Origin: Pseudomonadota bacterium
GTDB lineage: Bacteria > Desulfobacterota > Desulfobacteria > Desulfobacterales > RPRI01
Assembly: GCA_018901125.1 (NCBI GenBank)
Contig: JAHIFE010000159.1
Span: 1-56,723 of the forward strand
Reading direction: 5' to 3'
Length of the DNA: 56,723 nt
Part shown: positions 23,676-30,631 of the stretch, piece by piece
Numbering within the stretch: the first letter of the stretch is position 1
Layout of the letters: each line of letters starts with the position of its first letter
The notes under the pieces: generated by a model
Told to the model about the DNA's origin: nothing
The model's database searches: none
The model's input: only the letters and a program-made list of their open reading frames with translations
Made by a program: the position numbers and the translations under genes

Positions 23676-24509
23676 TCAGGAGTAAAGTGCGCTTATTATT
23701 TTATTGCTTTCTTTTAGAGCATCTTTGCAGGAATCTTTGAAAAATTCACGGATGTTTTCCATAAACAGGGTTCCGCTTTCATCCTGACCCGATAAAAGAG
23801 CATTTTTGCCTTCATCCATCGCAGAAATAAAAACTTCCAAAACATCTTTAAAGTTTTTGTTCTTATTTATAAGGCTTTTATAAAGATCAAGATCCTGGGC
23901 AAAAAGGCGGCCTATCAGATTATAGTTTATCTTAAATACCGGGGTAGAACATGAAAGCACATTGCCGGCATCCATATTCATCTTTTGCAGCGTTCTTGCC
24001 ATACAAATGGTGGTAAAATGAGTAAGCCCCTGCACAACAGCCATATGCCTGTCGTGAGTTAAAGGGTCCATCGTACACAAAACAGCGCCTTTTGAAGCAT
24101 ATTCATTTTCTATCCATTTTAGCCAACGCTCTCCTTTGCCTGGGCATAATACTATATTCTGTCCTTTTATTGAATCAGTGAAAGGGCCAAATAATGGATG
24201 CGTGCCGAGGACATCAGCCTTGGTATTATCTGTCATGCTTATTACTATTTCTTCTTTTAATGAGCACATGTCCATAAGAAGCTGGCCTTCTCGCATAAGA
24301 GGGCCAATTTCTTTTGAAATAGAAACGGCGGCAGTAAGAGGAACGCTTAAAACAACTACATTACATTCTTTTGCAACATCAGTATAAGTAATATCGGTGG
24401 TTCTTCCTGAAACCAAAACCTTGTGGCCAGCGGCAGAAAAAAAATTATTAAACCACCTGCCCATGCTTCCTGTTCCGCCAATTATGCCAATCGATATTAT
24501 TTTATTCAT
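23676..24509 (-). CDS. tyrA: Prephenate dehydrogenase
   Basis: 277 residues. A Rossmann NAD(P)-binding start (IGIIGGTGSMGRWFNNFF) is followed by SVPLTAAV, DMCSLKEEIV, GTHPLFGPF and the DRHMAVVQGLTHF helix, as in monofunctional TyrA. There is no chorismate mutase domain; that activity is carried by PheA of the same operon. The enzyme oxidises prephenate to 4-hydroxyphenylpyruvate for tyrosine. Its ATG overlaps the aroC stop by 4 bp (ATGA), so translation is coupled. It is the last gene of the aromatic operon. Confidence 0.88.
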   Translation of the reverse strand: MNKIISIGIIGGTGSMGRWFNNFFSAAGHKVLVSGRTTDITYTDVAKECNVVVLSVPLTAAVSISKEIGPLMREGQLLMDMCSLKEEIVISMTDNTKADVLGTHPLFGPFTDSIKGQNIVLCPGKGERWLKWIENEYASKGAVLCTMDPLTHDRHMAVVQGLTHFTTICMARTLQKMNMDAGNVLSCSTPVFKINYNLIGRLFAQDLDLYKSLINKNKNFKDVLEVFISAMDEGKNALLSGQDESGTLFMENIREFFKDSCKDALKESNKIISALYS

Positions 24510-25558
24510 CGGATAGCTCTTTGTCTCAATAAATGATCAGCCAGAACAAGGCATACCATTGACTCGCAAACTACATTTATCCGAGGTATAGCTGAAATAT
24601 CATGACGTCCTGAGATAGATATGGTTCTTTCTTTTTTTGACAAATCAATAGTATTTTGTTCTATGGAAATAGAAGGAATAGGCTTTACTGCAACCCGCAT
24701 AATGATTTCATCTCCGTTAGATATTCCGGCAAGAATTCCTCCGGCATTATTTGTTAAAAAGCCATCCGGGGTTATAGGATCATTATTTTCCGAACCAAGC
24801 AAAGATGAAGCTTTAAAACCGGCCCCGATCTCAATTCCTTTAACAGCGCCGATACTCATCAATGCTTTTGCAAGTTCAGCGTCAAGTTTATCAAAAACCG
24901 GCTCTCCAAGCCCTGCCGGAACTCCTCTTGCGACAATTTCAACTATTCCGCCAAGAGAATCCCCCTTGCTTTTTACTTCTTTAACTCTTTTTTCCATTTC
25001 TGCAGCGGTATTATTGTCAGGGCAAAAAAACATGTTTTGGGATATAACGTCAAGATTGCGCTCATTTGCCTTGATTCCGCCCAGCTCAATCGTATAAGCA
25101 CAGATGCTTATATTCTCTTTTTCAAGTAAAGCCTTGGCAACAGCGCCTGCCGCAACTCTTGCAACAGTTTCTCTTGCGGAAGCTCTTCCACCACCTCTCC
25201 AGTCCCTTATTCCATACTTGGCATGATAAGATATGTCGCCATGGCCGGGCCTGAAAATATCCGCATATTTTTTATAAGCGTCCGAATGTTGATCCTTGTT
25301 TTTAATCATAATCATAACAGAAGTTCCGGTTGTAAATCCATTAAACACCCCGGACATTATGATTGCTTCATCAGGCTCTTTTCTTGCAGTGCTTGCGATT
25401 GAGCTGCCAGGCTTTCTCCTGTCCAGCATAGCCTGGATAATTTGTTCATCAAGCGGTATTTGGGAAGGGCACCCGTCAATAACAACACCAACCCCTTTAC
25501 CGTGCGATTCGCCCCAGGTTGTTATTCTAAATAATGTTCCAAACGAGTTTCCGGACAT
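24506..25558 (-). CDS. aroC: Chorismate synthase
   Basis: 350 residues from the ATG at 25558 (MSGNSFGTLFRITTWGESHG). A longer frame to 25624 would overlap aroA and is rejected. Signatures are the GESHG start, RPGHGDISYHAKYGIRDWRG, GRASARETVARVAAGAVAK and, near the end, GRHDISAIPR. The FMN-dependent enzyme converts EPSP to chorismate, the last common step. The gene begins 4 bp after the aroA stop and overlaps tyrA by 4 bp. Confidence 0.95.
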   Translation of the reverse strand: MSGNSFGTLFRITTWGESHGKGVGVVIDGCPSQIPLDEQIIQAMLDRRKPGSSIASTARKEPDEAIIMSGVFNGFTTGTSVMIMIKNKDQHSDAYKKYADIFRPGHGDISYHAKYGIRDWRGGGRASARETVARVAAGAVAKALLEKENISICAYTIELGGIKANERNLDVISQNMFFCPDNNTAAEMEKRVKEVKSKGDSLGGIVEIVARGVPAGLGEPVFDKLDAELAKALMSIGAVKGIEIGAGFKASSLLGSENNDPITPDGFLTNNAGGILAGISNGDEIIMRVAVKPIPSISIEQNTIDLSKKERTISISGRHDISAIPRINVVCESMVCLVLADHLLRQRAIR

Positions 25559-25562
25559 ATTA

Positions 25563-26828
25563 TTATCCCGAGCTTCCAAGCTTTTCAAAAACATCCCAGA
25601 AATTTGGAAAAGACTTTTCAACACATTTTTTGTCTTCTATAATTATTCCCGGAGTTCTAAGACCTGCAACTGCGAAACTCATAGCTATTCTGTGATCGTT
25701 GTATGTGTCAATATGAGCCCCTGCCGGAGTTCCACCTTTAATAACAAGATCCGATCCTACAGATTTTGCTTCAATTCCTGTTTTTGAAAGTTCATTTATA
25801 ACAGCCGATAGACGGTCGCTTTCTTTTGCTTTTAAATGTTCAACATTTTTTATAACAGTAGTTCCATTTGCAAAAGCTGCAACTACTGCAAGAGTTGGAA
25901 CCATATCTGGCATATCGGACATATCCGTTTCAATTCCGACAAGCGATCCGCCCTTAACCGTAATTCCATCGCTTTCAAAATAAACTTTGCATCCCATCTT
26001 TTCAAAAAGCCCTGTAAGCTTGAGATCTCCCTGACGCGAATCTTTTGTAATACCTTTAACCTTGATTTCAGAACCGGTAATGGCAGCGGCAGCCCAGAAA
26101 TATCCTGCCTGTGAACAATCCGGTTCGACCAAAAAAGAACCGGCCCTGTATACTTGTTGTCCGTCTACAGCAAATCCGGTATAGCCATCCCGGGATACAT
26201 TTACCCCCAGTTTTGCCATAATATCAATCGTCATATCTATATAGGGTTTTGATACAGGCCCTTCCACAACCTTTATCTTTATTCCTTTTTCAGTGTAGGG
26301 AGCAATTAAAAGGACTGAAGATAAAAACTGGCTGCTGATGTTACATTTAAGTTCAATATATCCGCCTTTTATTTTTCCACCTTTTATTATTACAGGCGGG
26401 CATCCGTTGTTATCAACTGAACGGGCTTCTACTCCCAGGCTGTTTAAACCGTCAAGTAAATCCTGAATCGGGCGCATTGACATACGTTCTGTTCCGGTAA
26501 GCGTGTACTCGCCATCACCAAGAGCGGCCACACCGGTTAAAAGACGCATGGATGTTCCGGAATTGGCAAGATAAATCGGTTTATTATATGCCCTAAGAAC
26601 TCCTTTCGAACCATATACTATTACTTCTTTTTCGAAATCCTCAATTTTAACGCCCATCAGACGCAGAGTTTCCAGCGTTAGAATAGTATCTTCACTTTTA
26701 AGACAGTTCTTTAAGTTACAACGTCCATCCGATAATGCCGATGCAATCAAAAGCCTGTGTGTGTAGCTTTTTGAACCTGGCACTTCAATTTCGCATTTAT
26801 TGACAATTCTGGGAAGTATTTCTATCAT
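25563..26828 (-). CDS. aroA: 3-phosphoshikimate 1-carboxyvinyltransferase (EPSP synthase)
   Basis: 421 residues, normal for the family. Substrate-binding motifs are PGSKSYTHRLLIASAL at the N-terminus, YLANSGTSMRLLTGV, QFLSSVLLIAP, KESDRLSAV and DHRIAMSFAVAGLR. It transfers the enolpyruvyl group of PEP to shikimate 3-phosphate. It stands between pheA (80 bp upstream) and aroC (4 bp downstream). The shikimate kinase, dehydroquinase and shikimate dehydrogenase genes are not in this window. Confidence 0.95.
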   Translation of the reverse strand: MIEILPRIVNKCEIEVPGSKSYTHRLLIASALSDGRCNLKNCLKSEDTILTLETLRLMGVKIEDFEKEVIVYGSKGVLRAYNKPIYLANSGTSMRLLTGVAALGDGEYTLTGTERMSMRPIQDLLDGLNSLGVEARSVDNNGCPPVIIKGGKIKGGYIELKCNISSQFLSSVLLIAPYTEKGIKIKVVEGPVSKPYIDMTIDIMAKLGVNVSRDGYTGFAVDGQQVYRAGSFLVEPDCSQAGYFWAAAAITGSEIKVKGITKDSRQGDLKLTGLFEKMGCKVYFESDGITVKGGSLVGIETDMSDMPDMVPTLAVVAAFANGTTVIKNVEHLKAKESDRLSAVINELSKTGIEAKSVGSDLVIKGGTPAGAHIDTYNDHRIAMSFAVAGLRTPGIIIEDKKCVEKSFPNFWDVFEKLGSSG

Positions 26829-26908: not shown

Positions 26909-28018
26909 CTATAAGATGCCTTTAGCCATAGGGTATGATCCAAGGCATTTAAGGTAAAGACAAATTTTATTCATTTTTTTAATTGTTGAAGAAACAACGG
27001 GATCATCAATATGTCCTTCAATATCAACAAGGAAAAAATAGCTCCAGTTTTCATGCTTTGTAGGCCTTGACTCAAGTTTGACCATATTTATCCCGGATTC
27101 TGCCATAGGTTTTAATATTTTGAACAAAGCCCCGGGAACGTTAGGTGTTACAAATATAATGGAAGTCTTGTCAACCCCCGTTCTTTTTATCACATCTTTT
27201 CCTATAACAAGAAAACGTGTAGTATTTCTTGATACATCTTCTATTTTTGATGCAATAACCTTAAGATTATAGATATGAGCTGCCATACTACTTGCAATAG
27301 CAGCCGATTTAGGATCATCAGAAGCTCTCCGGGCGGCATTAGCAGTGCTGTCACATTCTACAAGAGATGCTTTAGGAAGGTTTTTCTGAATCCAGTTTCT
27401 GCATTGGGGAAATACCTGAGGATGCGAATAGATCACTTTAGCTTTGCTTAAAGAGTCTCCCTTTGCCAAAAGATCATGTGATATCGGGTTGTATAATTCC
27501 GCACATATTTTTAAGTCCGATTCAAAGAAAAGATCAAGGGTATAATTAACTGAGCCTTCTATAGAATTTTCAACCGGAACAACTCCGTAAAGACATGAGC
27601 CTTTTCCTACCTCCCGGAATATGTCACCAATTGTTGTTTGCGGCATATAACCAACAGAGCGTCCGAAATAACTCATTGCTGCAATATGGGAAAAAGTAGC
27701 CTCCGGGCCAAGATAAGCGACCGAATGATGATTTTGGATTTCACGCGCTGCTGCAATTATCTCTGAGAATATATGGCAAAGAGCCTGTTCGCCAAGAGGG
27801 CCATTGTTGAGAGCGGTCAATTTTTCGATAATAGCTTTTTCACGTGCTATATCAAGGACTTTGCTCCCTTTTTTAGCCTTAATCTTGCCTATTTCCTTTG
27901 CAAGAAGAAGCCTTTCATTTATAAGACCCACAATTTTTTCATCAATTTTATCAATACCGTTTCTTAAATCATCTATTACAGTATCGGAAGAAGCACTTCC
28001 TTTATTTATTTTTCCCAT
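26909..28018 (-). CDS. pheA: Bifunctional chorismate mutase/prephenate dehydratase (P-protein)
   Basis: 369 residues in three parts. An AroQ chorismate mutase is at residues about 15-95 (IDEKIVGLINERLLLAKEIG). Prephenate dehydratase follows (VAYLGPEATFSHIAAMSYFG, VPVENSIEGSVNYTLDLF, NTTRFLVIG with the catalytic Thr). The C-terminal ACT domain (NVPGALFKILKPMAESGINM, then LESRP) binds phenylalanine for feedback inhibition. It makes phenylpyruvate from chorismate. ESRP matches the regulatory motif of E. coli PheA, so Phe inhibition is likely in addition to the operon's attenuator. Confidence 0.93.
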   Translation of the reverse strand: MGKINKGSASSDTVIDDLRNGIDKIDEKIVGLINERLLLAKEIGKIKAKKGSKVLDIAREKAIIEKLTALNNGPLGEQALCHIFSEIIAAAREIQNHHSVAYLGPEATFSHIAAMSYFGRSVGYMPQTTIGDIFREVGKGSCLYGVVPVENSIEGSVNYTLDLFFESDLKICAELYNPISHDLLAKGDSLSKAKVIYSHPQVFPQCRNWIQKNLPKASLVECDSTANAARRASDDPKSAAIASSMAAHIYNLKVIASKIEDVSRNTTRFLVIGKDVIKRTGVDKTSIIFVTPNVPGALFKILKPMAESGINMVKLESRPTKHENWSYFFLVDIEGHIDDPVVSSTIKKMNKICLYLKCLGSYPMAKGIL

Positions 28019-28087: not shown

Positions 28088-29080
28088 TTATTGTTCAAGT
28101 ATAGATTCGTCTATTTTGTGACCGAAATGCCTTCCACTTTCTTCTATTGCTACCAGTACTTTATCTCCCTTTTTCAGGTTGACAACGGATAGGGGTTTCC
28201 CATCCGGACTGGTCAATCTTATAGTCTCTGCATTTTGAAGAATGGTTGTTATTTTTTTGCCGCCCGCCAATGCCTTAATTATCAGTAGAGGACGCTTTTC
28301 GATTTTCAGTCTTCCGATTATTCCTGTAGTAATATTGCCTTTATAATCTGCGATATAAACTTGATCTCCGGCGCAAAGTTCGGACAGATATCTGGTTTTT
28401 CCGCCCGGCACTCTTGTGTAGGCATGAACTGCACCGGCATTAACTCTGAAAGGCCTCGGAGACACATAAGGGTTTTCAACCGTTTCTGCATGAACCAGAA
28501 AAAGAGCGCTGCTGCTGTTTCCTACCAGCATGCCCTGTCCCGGAATCATGGAAGTACAGGTATCAACACATACCCTGTCTCCCATTCCAACAGGTAAGAC
28601 TTCAATGATTTCAGCATGCTGAAGAGACACCTTATCCGTTTCCGAATTAATCAGAGATAAGGTTTTTTTTAATTCCGCCATATCAACAGAATTAAAAAGT
28701 ATATGTTTTACACCCTTTTCAAGAATGCCGGAAACTGTGCAGGCTTCCTGATAATTTCGAACCTGAGCGATTACATTGGCTCCTTTTGCTATAAGATTTT
28801 CAAGAGGAATTACTGTCCAGTCAGTACATTCCAGGATTACCTTCTTATTTAAACTCAGTTTCACTATTTCATCTTCGTCTTCACCGCTTTTTATTTTATA
28901 AAAGACAACATCTTTTCCTGTCTTTAAATCTCCATCTTCTGAAATAGTCTGAATTTTACCGAGTTCTTTGACTTTTTCCGAATATCCTTTCGGAACGAGA
29001 ACTCCGTCGGCACCGCCCTCAAGTGCGGTAGTAATAATGTCCTTGTTCCACGGGTCAGCTTTTACCCAAATTTTTCGCAT
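28088..29080 (-). CDS. 3-dehydroquinate synthase II (archaeal type)
   Basis: 330 residues, beginning MRKIWVKADPWNKDIITTAL, with EVLPVGMGDRVCVDTCTSM, PGQGMLVGNSSSALFLVHAE and RPFRVNAGAVHAYTRVPGGK as in archaeal AroB' (MJ1249 type). It oxidatively deaminates and cyclises ADH, the product of the preceding gene, to 3-dehydroquinate, replacing the usual DAHP-based AroB. The pair occurs in archaea and in some Desulfobacterota. It lies 174 bp after the ADH synthase gene. A short MITE end (29230-29252) is in that gap. Confidence 0.93.
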   Translation of the reverse strand: MRKIWVKADPWNKDIITTALEGGADGVLVPKGYSEKVKELGKIQTISEDGDLKTGKDVVFYKIKSGEDEDEIVKLSLNKKVILECTDWTVIPLENLIAKGANVIAQVRNYQEACTVSGILEKGVKHILFNSVDMAELKKTLSLINSETDKVSLQHAEIIEVLPVGMGDRVCVDTCTSMIPGQGMLVGNSSSALFLVHAETVENPYVSPRPFRVNAGAVHAYTRVPGGKTRYLSELCAGDQVYIADYKGNITTGIIGRLKIEKRPLLIIKALAGGKKITTILQNAETIRLTSPDGKPLSVVNLKKGDKVLVAIEESGRHFGHKIDESILEQ

Positions 29081-29254: not shown

Positions 29255-30052
29255 CTATCCAATAATTTTAAGCGCATCCACAACACTCGCATTATCATGA
29301 ACAATTGATGATATAGCCTGAACCATCTTTGCAGGGTTTTTGTGCTGAAAAACATTGCGCCCGATTGAAACTCCTGCGCCACCTGCTTCCATGGAACCTT
29401 TCACCATTTCTAAGATTTCCCTGTCCGAATTCATTTTAGGACCGCCTGCGATTACAACAGGAATTGAGCATCCTTCCACAACCTCTTTGAATGAATCAAC
29501 CGAACCGGTATAGGATACTTTGACTATATCGGCACCCATTTCATCTCCCACACGGGCGGCATGCTTAATATAATTTACATCAAACTCATCTTTAATTTTT
29601 TCTCCTCTCGGGTAGATCATTGCAAGCAGTGGCATGCCCCATGTTTTTGCATCATTGGTCACTGTTCCAAAATCTCTTAGCATATCCTTTTCCGAACCGT
29701 TACCAATATTAACATGTATAGAAACAGCATCAGCACCAAGCTTGATTGCTTCTTCAACCGAACAAATAAGAGTTTTTGCATTCGGATTGGGGGAAAGGCT
29801 TGTTGAGGCGGAAAGATGAATAATTAGCCCTATATCTCTTCCGCCCCTTCTGTGCCCGGCTCCCACAAGTCCTTTGTGTTCTACAATGGCGTTTGCACCA
29901 CCGTCTGAAACCATCTGAACCGCGCTTTTCATATCCTTAAGGCCTTCAATAGGTCCAACTGAAATGCCGTGATCCATGGGAACAATAACGGTTTTTCCGG
30001 TATTGCGGTTTATAATACGCTCAATCCTGATTTGCTTTCCTATAATTGTCAT
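29255..30052 (-). CDS. 2-amino-3,7-dideoxy-D-threo-hept-6-ulosonate (ADH) synthase, class I aldolase family
   Basis: 265 residues; GGGAGA precedes the ATG. It has the class I fructose-bisphosphate-aldolase-like barrel of archaeal AroA' (MJ0400 type): [56 protein letters not shown], the Schiff-base lysine in [10 protein letters not shown], and VVIAGGPK. It condenses an aspartate-semialdehyde-derived unit with a 6-deoxy-5-ketofructose phosphate to give ADH, the first dedicated step of the alternative route to dehydroquinate. Adjacent dehydroquinate synthase II makes this function much likelier than glycolytic aldolase. It is the first structural gene behind the leader peptide and attenuator. 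Confidence 0.92.
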
Positions 30053-30075: not shown

Positions 30076-30110
30076 CAAAAAGGCCGTGAAGTTTACCTCC
30101 TCCACGGCCT
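30076..30110 (-). terminator. Attenuator hairpin 2
   Basis: On the minus strand AGGCCGTG pairs with CACGGCCT around a 14-nt loop and is followed by TTTTT. The loop contains GGAGGAGG, an unusual Shine-Dalgarno-like run with no start codon after it. Its 5' arm can instead pair with the 3' arm of hairpin 1 (CCACGGC with GCCGTGG), which would break both hairpins. Confidence 0.75.
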
Positions 30111-30114
30111 ATAA

Positions 30115-30157
30115 AACTAAAAAAGCCGTGGGTTTCGGGTTCCACCCATGGCTTTTT
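30115..30157 (-). terminator. Attenuator hairpin 1
   Basis: On the minus strand AAAAAGCCATGGGT pairs with ACCCACGGCTTTTT (one mismatch) around a short loop and runs into further T. This is a strong intrinsic terminator placed 21 nt after the leader-peptide stop and about 65 nt before the first structural gene, where an attenuator belongs. Confidence 0.85.
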
Positions 30158-30177
30158 GCGTTTAGTATATAATTACC

Positions 30178-30249
30178 TCAACGCACCACAGGCAGACCGG
30201 TGCTATAGTAATAATAAAACTCAAAAAATTTGCCTGTGAATATATTCAT
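30178..30249 (-). CDS. Phe/Tyr-rich leader peptide of the aromatic amino acid operon
   Basis: 23 codons from the ATG at 30249 to a TGA at 30178-30180. The peptide starts MNIFTGK, continues FFEFYYYY and ends STGLPVVR. Four Phe and four Tyr codons are present, seven of them packed in eight positions (30205-30228), far above chance. AAGGA lies 6 nt before the ATG, and a TTGACA promoter candidate is about 90 nt upstream. A small GCACC/GGTGC hairpin (30183-30203) overlaps the last codons and could act as the pause site. Two terminators follow. Ribosome stalling when charged tRNA-Phe or tRNA-Tyr is short would decide read-through into the operon, as in pheL or trpL. It is too short for ordinary gene finders. 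Confidence 0.88.
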   Translation of the reverse strand: MNIFTGKFFEFYYYYSTGLPVVR

Positions 30250-30631
30250 AATATGTCCTTGATAAGTTGCTCCTGATAAGTCCTTGTCAAAATTACTTAA
30301 ATACAGATATTAATTTTCTATATTTTAGAATCGTGTATGTCAAGCACTTTTTTAAAATTGTCAGGAGCAAATGAACTGTCCTGTCTTTTAGCACTTAATT
30401 TGTCCAATTTTCCTTATATTTTGGACTTTGTTATATGTTCCTTTTGCAAACAGCTTGAAAAGCTTAACACATTTCTGCTAAGGAAAAACATGGACAAAAA
30501 GATGATAAAATTTTCTCCATTAACGAAAAGAAACTTGAGTAACATATTTTGTGAGTCAATGTTGTCTCCAGCTTTATTCAGCGGAGTGACAACTTTTTAC
30601 GAGTCAAACATCTTTTGGATGGAGGAAAAAC
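30250..30631. other. Divergent promoter region between the aromatic operon leader and the SDR gene
   Basis: It holds the leftward promoter (30315-30343). From 30541 to 30605 lies a degenerate dyad (TTGTCTCC with GGAGTGACAA) whose right half, GTGACAACTTTTTACGAG, resembles the arm of the decayed palindrome at 12142. The open frame from 30337 into the SDR gene is not a gene. GGAGG at 30619-30625 serves the SDR start. No rightward promoter is clear. Confidence 0.4.
30315..30343 (-). promoter_or_regulatory. Candidate sigma-70 promoter of the aromatic operon
   Basis: On the minus strand TTGACA (30343-30338) is followed after 17 nt by TAGAAA (30320-30315); TATAGA at 15 nt is an alternative -10. Transcription would start near 30308, leaving about 60 nt before the leader peptide. 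The -35 is perfect; the -10 is modest. Confidence 0.5.

Follow-up and report, generated by a model that had tools for sequence, protein, structure and literature searches.

The classical leader-peptide attenuators known from enterobacteria include trpL, pheL and the ilv leaders; sensing of more than one amino acid occurs in ilv and thr leaders. Attenuators of proteobacteria were reportedly compared in a survey of 2004. The strand logic of the trp and his attenuators is described in PMC1183508. Two tandem terminators, the upstream one with a possible antiterminator, have been described for the rimP leader of Gammaproteobacteria, and a motif termed uORFC-13-1 lies upstream of aroF in 24 sequences from Acholeplasma and environmental DNA (PMC2965389 and PMC8632094, respectively). 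The trpB motif RF04312 is reported from Firmicutes and Fusobacteria by authors who do not exclude a classic attenuator (PMC11109978).

Here, we describe a locus in a window of 56,723 nucleotides (the whole stretch of DNA that was analysed) whose host bacterium is a relative of sulfate-reducing bacteria. A six-gene operon on the minus strand is preceded by what is probably a leader-peptide (ribosome-mediated) transcription attenuator, which comprises six pairing strands and a series of two intrinsic terminators. The features are given below in the order in which they would be transcribed, with 1:2 denoting the pairing of strands 1 and 2, and so on.

30317..30343, minus strand: promoter-like TTGACA - 15 nt - TATAGA upstream of the leader ORF (sequence and relatives)
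30178..30249, minus strand: leader ORF of 23 codons, MNIFTGKFFEFYYYYSTGLPVVR plus stop (translation; AAGGA Shine-Dalgarno-like sequence)
30229..30238, minus strand: strand 1, CACAGGCAAA, codons 4-7, pairs with strand 2
30205..30228, minus strand: codons 8-15, the regulatory run FFEFYYYY, enclosed as a loop by 1:2
30182..30200, minus strand: strand 2, CCGGTCTGCCTGTGGTGCG, spanning the last codons of the leader (alternative partners: 1, 3)
30141..30152, minus strand: strand 3, GCCATGGGTGGA, forming the 5' arm of terminator hairpin 1 (alternative partners: 2, 4)
30119..30134, minus strand: strand 4, AACCCACGGC (30134-30125), plus U-tract 1 (30124-30119), pairs with 3 or 5
30099..30109, minus strand: strand 5, GGCCGTGGAGG, forming the 5' arm of terminator hairpin 2 (alternative partners: 4, 6)
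30077..30091, minus strand: strand 6, CTTCACGGCC (30091-30082), plus U-tract 2 (30081-30077), pairs with 5
29255..30052, minus strand: ADH (2-amino-3,7-dideoxy-D-threo-hept-6-ulosonate) synthase, first structural gene (TIGR01949, 378.5 bits, cut-off 299.45)
28088..29080, minus strand: 3-dehydroquinate synthase II (NF002627, 503.5 bits, cut-off 392)
26909..28018, minus strand: chorismate mutase/prephenate dehydratase, pheA (NF008865, 280.6 bits, cut-off 219)
25563..26828, minus strand: EPSP synthase, aroA (TIGR01356, 453.4 bits, cut-off 287.25)
24506..25624 as listed, minus strand: chorismate synthase, aroC (TIGR00033, 429.5 bits, cut-off 212.2)
23676..24509, minus strand: prephenate dehydrogenase, tyrA (prephenate dehydrogenase families, all below cut-off, best 182 bits)

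By its testable features, the window leader would belong to the ribosome-mediated attenuators. Like those of enterobacteria, it has a short ORF with regulatory codons, a 1:2 protector, a 2:3 antiterminator and a 3:4 terminator; unlike them, it adds strands 5 and 6, that is, a second terminator linked via 4:5, its codons are for Phe and Tyr (in most relatives also for Trp), and it precedes an ADH-route operon. With the rimP leader it shares the two terminators in series before one operon, whereas for rimP no leader peptide or pairing between the terminators is described and control is ascribed to a protein, probably NusA (PMC2965389). In the uORFC-13-1 motif, too, a terminator and a gene for the first shikimate step follow a uORF containing one or more Phe codons; one terminator is described (PMC8632094). 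RF04312 is similar in having at least two hairpins, the second terminator-like, before trpB or transporter genes (PMC11109978), and the Corynebacterium ilvBNC attenuator in having a leader peptide with terminator, antiterminator and anti-antiterminator hairpins; unlike the window leader, the latter comprises three hairpins of which one is a terminator (PMC11857589). No match at gathering score to any of the 4227 Rfam 15 models was obtained in the whole window, and among the matches listed for other loci of the leader family (7 + 20 sources) no Rfam 15 family reached threshold. RF04312 scored 30.2 and 38.9 bits in two trp leaders (cut-off, 59) and was not among the matches listed for the window leader. 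As for the literature, no title or abstract opening among the open-licence matches listed concerned such leaders in this phylum. The points of difference are the second, linked terminator and membership of a family of leaders in which the codons are swapped.

The six genes make up the ADH route to Phe and Tyr, and a Phe/Tyr sensor therefore fits the products of the operon. These profile matches bear out the first-pass annotation, a reading of the bare sequence, in that the operon has six genes and starts with ADH synthase and dehydroquinate synthase II, with tyrA recognised below the curated cut-offs. Chorismate mutase domain models also match the N-terminus of PheA with scores under their cut-offs, and the true start of aroC is probably later than listed since its profile match begins at residue 32-33.

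Translation confirmed the proposed 23-codon leader ORF, with AAGGA located six bases before the ATG. The ORF contains four Phe and four Tyr codons, as first counted; of the Phe codons, three are within FFEFYYYY, which had been thought to hold all four, and the fourth is codon 4. Seven of eight residues are F, Y or W in the best stretch of this ORF, a density that was not attained when the 450-nt region before ADH synthase was shuffled by dinucleotides (0/2000). Of 133 relatives, 114 have a TTGACA at most 160 nt ahead of their leader ORF, compared to 5.9 in single-base shuffles, which would place the likely transcription start before the leader. Simple scans of the region showed no excess over shuffles, neither for promoter-like sites (2 vs 2.3) nor for terminator-like sites (1 vs 0.6). 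The TTGACA-15-TATAGA site itself, which falls inside the interval given in the first-pass annotation, goes unreported by such a scan because the scan requires a spacer of 16-18 nt.

Between the leader ORF and the first gene, there are indeed two T-tailed hairpins: hairpin 1 (30152-30125, minus strand) is followed by six T and extends with its U-tract to 30119, and hairpin 2 (30109-30082, minus strand) is followed by five T and extends to 30077. Both have a GCCGTGG core. Compared to its own shuffles, the leader stretch is more stable (z -4.2, 0/200). Predicted duplex energies in the window are, in kcal/mol, -15.0 for 1:2, -16.9 for 2:3, -12.9 for 3:4, -14.1 for 4:5 and -18.8 for 5:6, as opposed to -6.6 for the control pairing 3:6. 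The 4:5 pairing is the exact 7-bp match of CCACGGC, in the 3' arm of hairpin 1, with GCCGTGG, in the 5' arm of hairpin 2, on which the first-pass annotation had based mutually exclusive folds. While this pairing stood, the picture of two competing hairpins gave way to one of six strands, including a 12-pair 2:3 antiterminator that had been missed. Similarly, the small GCACC/GGTGC hairpin proposed over the last codons has a stronger alternative in 1:2, formed by codons 4-7 with codons 17-23. An A.C mismatch inside hairpin 1 is present in all seven aligned leaders of the window's genus, and in the window the same A is paired in 2:3. The pairings would fall into a termination set (1:2, 3:4, 5:6) and a read-through set (2:3, 4:5).

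On the basis of the observed ORF, codons and strands, with their conservation and covariation, we infer stalling, termination, read-through and a timing that lets 4:5 hold, in response to Phe/Tyr starvation. With plentiful Phe and Tyr, the ribosome would reach the stop codon and cover strand 2, leaving strands 3 and 4 to pair as terminator 1; any RNA polymerase escaping it would meet 5:6, that is, terminator 2. When charged Phe- or Tyr-tRNA is short, the ribosome would stall in FFEFYYYY and block strand 1. Strand 2 could then take strand 3, causing terminator 1 to fail, and strand 4, being free, would take strand 5 before strand 6 is made, such that terminator 2 fails as well. In an untranslated leader, 1:2 should form and transcription should stop.

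We folded the leader to its minimum energy with a masked ribosome in five states, assuming a mask of 15 nt from the A site; these are equilibrium rather than kinetic folds. With the ribosome at Y12, 2:3 was kept through U-tract 1, flipping to 3:4 at nt 142-144, and 2:3 plus 4:5 were present while the nascent end was at nt 145-167. With the ribosome at the stop codon, 3:4 formed from nt 121, ahead of U-tract 1. The flip to 3:4 came at nt 126 for a ribosome at F8 and at nt 125 for one at Y15, and 4:5 appeared transiently also in the two states meant to terminate, with the ribosome absent or positioned at the stop codon. Given these flips, including that at Y12, and the transient 4:5, equilibrium folding separates the states poorly. 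After completion of strand 6, the minimum-energy fold of all five states contains 5:6 (-18.8 vs -14.1 for 4:5). Since 5:6 wins at equilibrium even under stalling, a relay to terminator 2 would need kinetics, that is, co-transcriptional timing.

To look at conservation, we collected ADH-synthase orthologues from same-order genomes (44/59 matched at E <= 0.001; 150/291 at E <= 1e-80) and from the best 80 loci of a collection of named genomes, the named relatives with ADH synthase including Desulfatibacillum alkenivorans DSM 16219 and Desulfoluna. Removal of repeats left 165 upstream regions, 145 from orthologues and 20 from more distant copies. A short ORF with at least five F/Y/W within eight residues was found in 126 of the 139 orthologue regions of at least 450 nt, compared to 69 of 1390 shuffles. 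Four of the 13 regions without such an ORF carry the leader farther upstream (L040, L045, L106, L197), L163 has a weaker aromatic run plus a terminator, and seven have no recognisable leader (L120, L130, L169, L174, L178, L205, L206). In L126, both hairpins and strand 2 are present and the leader ORF is interrupted early, suggestive of a decayed leader or an assembly error.

Of the 145 orthologues, 133 leaders were aligned; the 12 excluded were L126, L130, L136, L163, L169, L174, L178, L205, L206 and L207 (low density or short DNA), L185 (low identity), and L189 (low identity as well as low density or short DNA). The aligned set includes one spurious match without hairpins, L120. Leader lengths in L004, L014, L028 and others are uncertain because the score-based choice of the best ORF sometimes takes an upstream start. 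Stem 1 is kept in 131/133 relatives and stem 2 with its U-tract in 104/133. Loss of the Phe/Tyr run or of the hairpins in homologous leaders had been named at the outset as counter-evidence; these leaders mostly keep both.

Comparison thus supports the initial idea of a Phe/Tyr attenuator for the six-gene operon, while also revealing it to be incomplete: a Trp codon is present somewhere in the ORF in 89 of the 133 leaders (in none of the seven of the window's genus), and the wider family, described below, is codon-swapped. Trp genes in the same operon do not seem to explain these Trp codons: among 70 operon stretches of at least 9 kb, which include some genomes twice from two collections, 50 leaders have a Trp codon, and more than one trp gene was found in no stretch (0/70). 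A likelier explanation is the chorismate route, which is shared.

The 20 more distant ADH-synthase copies (55-65% identity), some of which are the only copy found in their genome, divide into seven with an aromatic, mostly Phe-rich ORF and one GGGCCGCAGGC-type terminator (L211, L212, L213, L215, L223, L224, L229), and 13 without. By eye, the next gene in L238 and L239 resembles a second chorismate mutase/prephenate dehydratase. L012 and L045 contain a long near-perfect inverted repeat, with 27-29 bp per arm, between hairpin 2 and ADH synthase. ADH synthase of this type is also found on contigs labelled Falkowbacteria (L120), Phycisphaerae (L189) and Deferribacteres (L190), reflecting either mis-binning or transfer.

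Exchanging partners among genomes, in 119 leaders for strands 1-3 and 104 for strands 3-6 and ignoring relatedness, we found that for 1:2, 2:3, 3:4, 4:5 and 5:6 the own partner beat all swaps (0/2000 each). The control pairings did not, with 1920/2000 swaps as good or better for 1:3, 147/2000 for 3:6 and 1554/2000 for 2:5; protector 1:2 and antiterminator 2:3 are thus supported while their control 1:3 is not. Covariation was scored on a less redundant alignment of 61 leaders, against shuffles that likewise ignore relatedness. In 3:4 and 5:6, 95.4% of cells are paired and 15/17 pairs changed on both sides in some sequence; the corresponding values are 92.9% and 5/7 for 2:3, and 96.3% and 5/7 for 4:5, which has 24 such doubly changed cells vs 7.9 in shuffles. 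Control 3:6 is lower (89.9%; 3/7; nine such cells vs 5.0) and still has some signal: no more than 2/500 shuffles attain its paired cells and covariation score, as expected from the similarity of the two hairpins. Compared as duplexes, 4:5 has a more favourable energy than 3:6 in 79 of 105 ADH-synthase leaders.

Among 104 leaders, position 7 of 4:5 is a G-C pair 87 times and an A-T pair 11 times, with 5:6 being G.U there in 62. Along the ADH-synthase tree with all branches, strand 5 follows strand 4 here in 7.5 of nine independent pairs and none goes the opposite way, whereas strand 3 changes with strand 4 in one of ten. At position 5, strands 4 and 5 change together in seven of 21 independent pairs with none against, strand 3 with 4 in 10/21, and control strands 3 with 6 in 2.2/11. 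At position 1, strand 5, which stays G and wobbles, follows strand 4 in 0/9, compared to 4.5 for strand 3; position 6 has strand 5 following in 1.3/6. The starred branches provide one pair at position 7 and seven at position 5, 1.4 of the latter the same way. Across the tree, support for strand 5 tracking strand 4 is suggestive, not strong, and tree-independent covariation is thin.

Three architectures were seen among the 133 leaders: 90 have both terminators, 29 have hairpin 1 alone (calls for L023 and L120 doubtful), and 14 have hairpin 2 with its U-tract plus a hairpin 1 that lacks one (L181 borderline). The 13 clear leaders without U-tract 1 fall in one 17-row clade of the ADH-synthase tree, where two to three losses can be read; hairpin 1 itself is weak in one of them (L105), and two further leaders of this type, L263 and L272, come from another family of the phylum. 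All 14 retain six or seven of the seven standard pairs of 4:5. Control 3:6 is complete (7/7) in 9/14; by duplex energy 4:5 beats it in 12 of the 13 clear leaders. With U-tract 1 absent and 4:5 kept, stalling could reach terminator 2 only via 2:3 and 4:5, or not at all. The retained pairing may be the best single argument that 4:5 is used.

A covariance model built on strands 2-6 extended the search beyond the ADH-synthase operon. Within the window's own genome, two places were significant, the ADH-synthase leader and a leader before a trpE-G-D-C-F-B-A gene row, in which trpB was identified by TIGR00263 and the other trp genes were named by eye. This trp leader, L242 (G000:C98:22074-22205), has the run NWCWRAY with two Trp codons and the same two-terminator core; a motif search for WW or three W before the trp operon had not picked it up. 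Three other matches in this genome were not counted (E 0.015 to 0.53): L243, which is antisense to the first match, L244 and L245.

When the same model is applied to 297 genomes of the phylum, 165 yield a match at E <= 0.001, and a single genome can have as many as seven. We read 71 places, 31 returned by the scan and 40 hand-chosen from lower listed matches and hence a non-random sample, and typed the downstream genes by similarity to reference proteins. Ten typed proteins were compared to NCBIfam: four score over a curated cut-off, five have a best match below it (mostly proteins truncated where the stretch ends), and for the ABC binding protein no match was obtained. Codon runs are for Trp before trpE (16/16) and trpB-like genes (4/4), F/Y before ADH synthase (17/17, eight of these with W), F/Y/W before type I-alpha DAHP synthase (4/4), Phe-rich before phenylacetate-CoA ligase (3/3) and the ABC binding protein (2/2), and Val/Leu/Ile before ilvB (3/3). 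Before type I-beta DAHP synthase, 16/19 runs are F/Y, 15 of these with W, and three are Trp runs. The remaining runs are Leu before one FabK-like reductase gene, a doubtful fit, and, at two untyped places, one Leu and one Trp. An aromatic score threshold is passed by 66/71 places vs 2.75% of single-base shuffles; the five failures are the Val/Leu/Ile and Leu leaders. On this reading, the codon run appears to fit the typed downstream gene in nearly all of the 71 places.

Among individual leaders with this RNA core, L276, L287 and L294, which are Phe-rich, precede phenylacetate-CoA ligase genes, which hints that the ligase may make Phe from phenylacetate rather than degrade phenylacetate. The Phe-rich L289 and L292 precede a gene that by eye resembles an ABC-transporter binding protein, a candidate Phe uptake system, and the Leu-rich L296 and L297 precede the FabK-like reductase gene and an untyped stretch, respectively. 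The Trp runs before type I-beta DAHP synthase (L271, L305, L310) may mark Trp-specific isoenzymes.

For a wider alignment we used 54 non-ADH-synthase loci with their best row each, setting aside 17 second matches on the opposite strand. Here 3:4, 5:6 and 4:5 all beat swaps, and so does control 3:6; 4:5 has more standard pairs than 3:6 in 18 places, as many in 28 and fewer in eight. Outside the ADH-synthase leaders, the relay pairing is therefore less clearly separated from hairpin similarity. All in all, we lean toward a codon-programmed attenuator family across Desulfobacterota, in which a six-strand, two-terminator core would relay the signal (stall, 2:3, 4:5), the codon run (FYW, FY, F, W or VLI) would be swapped to match the gene, and in some lineages hairpin 1 would merely pass the signal to hairpin 2.

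The main competitor to the proposed relay, in our view an unlikely one, is a classical four-strand attenuator (1:2, 2:3, 3:4) with an independent back-up terminator 5:6, the 4:5 match being a by-product of hairpin 2 having been copied from hairpin 1. The GCCGTGG core common to both hairpins agrees with this, as does an equilibrium fold that retains 5:6 even under stalling, and where hairpin 1 is the sole terminator (29/133 leaders, less the doubtful L023 and L120), it must suffice. A plain copy, however, would preserve 3:6 like 4:5, and among ADH-synthase leaders 3:6 fails the swaps, pairs less well and is the weaker duplex in 79/105; that 3:6, for which no role is proposed, beats swaps in the wider phylum set and is as complete as 4:5 in 9/14 leaders lacking U-tract 1 points the other way. 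Position 7, where strand 5 tracks strand 4 and strand 3 hardly does, argues for the relay. So do the leaders without U-tract 1, in which a back-up terminator by itself would keep the operon off unless hairpin 2 is somehow opened.

Much less probable is control by a protein or small molecule that binds the hairpins, as in a riboswitch or TRAP-like system, with the short ORF incidental. The hairpin cores are strongly conserved, as such binding would suggest, and there is a precedent in the rimP tandem-terminator leader, which has been ascribed to a protein (PMC2965389). Yet codon identity changes with the downstream gene, from Trp before every trpE and trpB-like gene read to Val/Leu/Ile before each ilvB, and no Rfam family, T-box included, reaches threshold in the window or among the matches listed for other loci. 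As to the leader ORF being a product of chance in AT-rich DNA, flanked by two ordinary terminators and devoid of regulatory value, T-rich DNA does yield many Phe codons by chance and the promoter and terminator scans gave no excess over shuffles; this is nevertheless contradicted by leader conservation, the swap tests, the upstream TTGACA, covariation and codon runs that fit the downstream genes, leaving it a negligible probability.

If the proposed relay attenuator is correct, successive, mutually exclusive pairings would switch two terminators together, and a single sensor could thereby achieve tighter shut-off than with one terminator; the leaders without U-tract 1 would make this mechanism directly testable. 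It would also provide a control mechanism for the archaeal-type (ADH) aromatic pathway of this group. Moreover, as the codon run fits the downstream gene, the leader family may be used as an annotation tool, one that would already point to a role in Phe supply for some phenylacetate-CoA ligases and ABC binding proteins.
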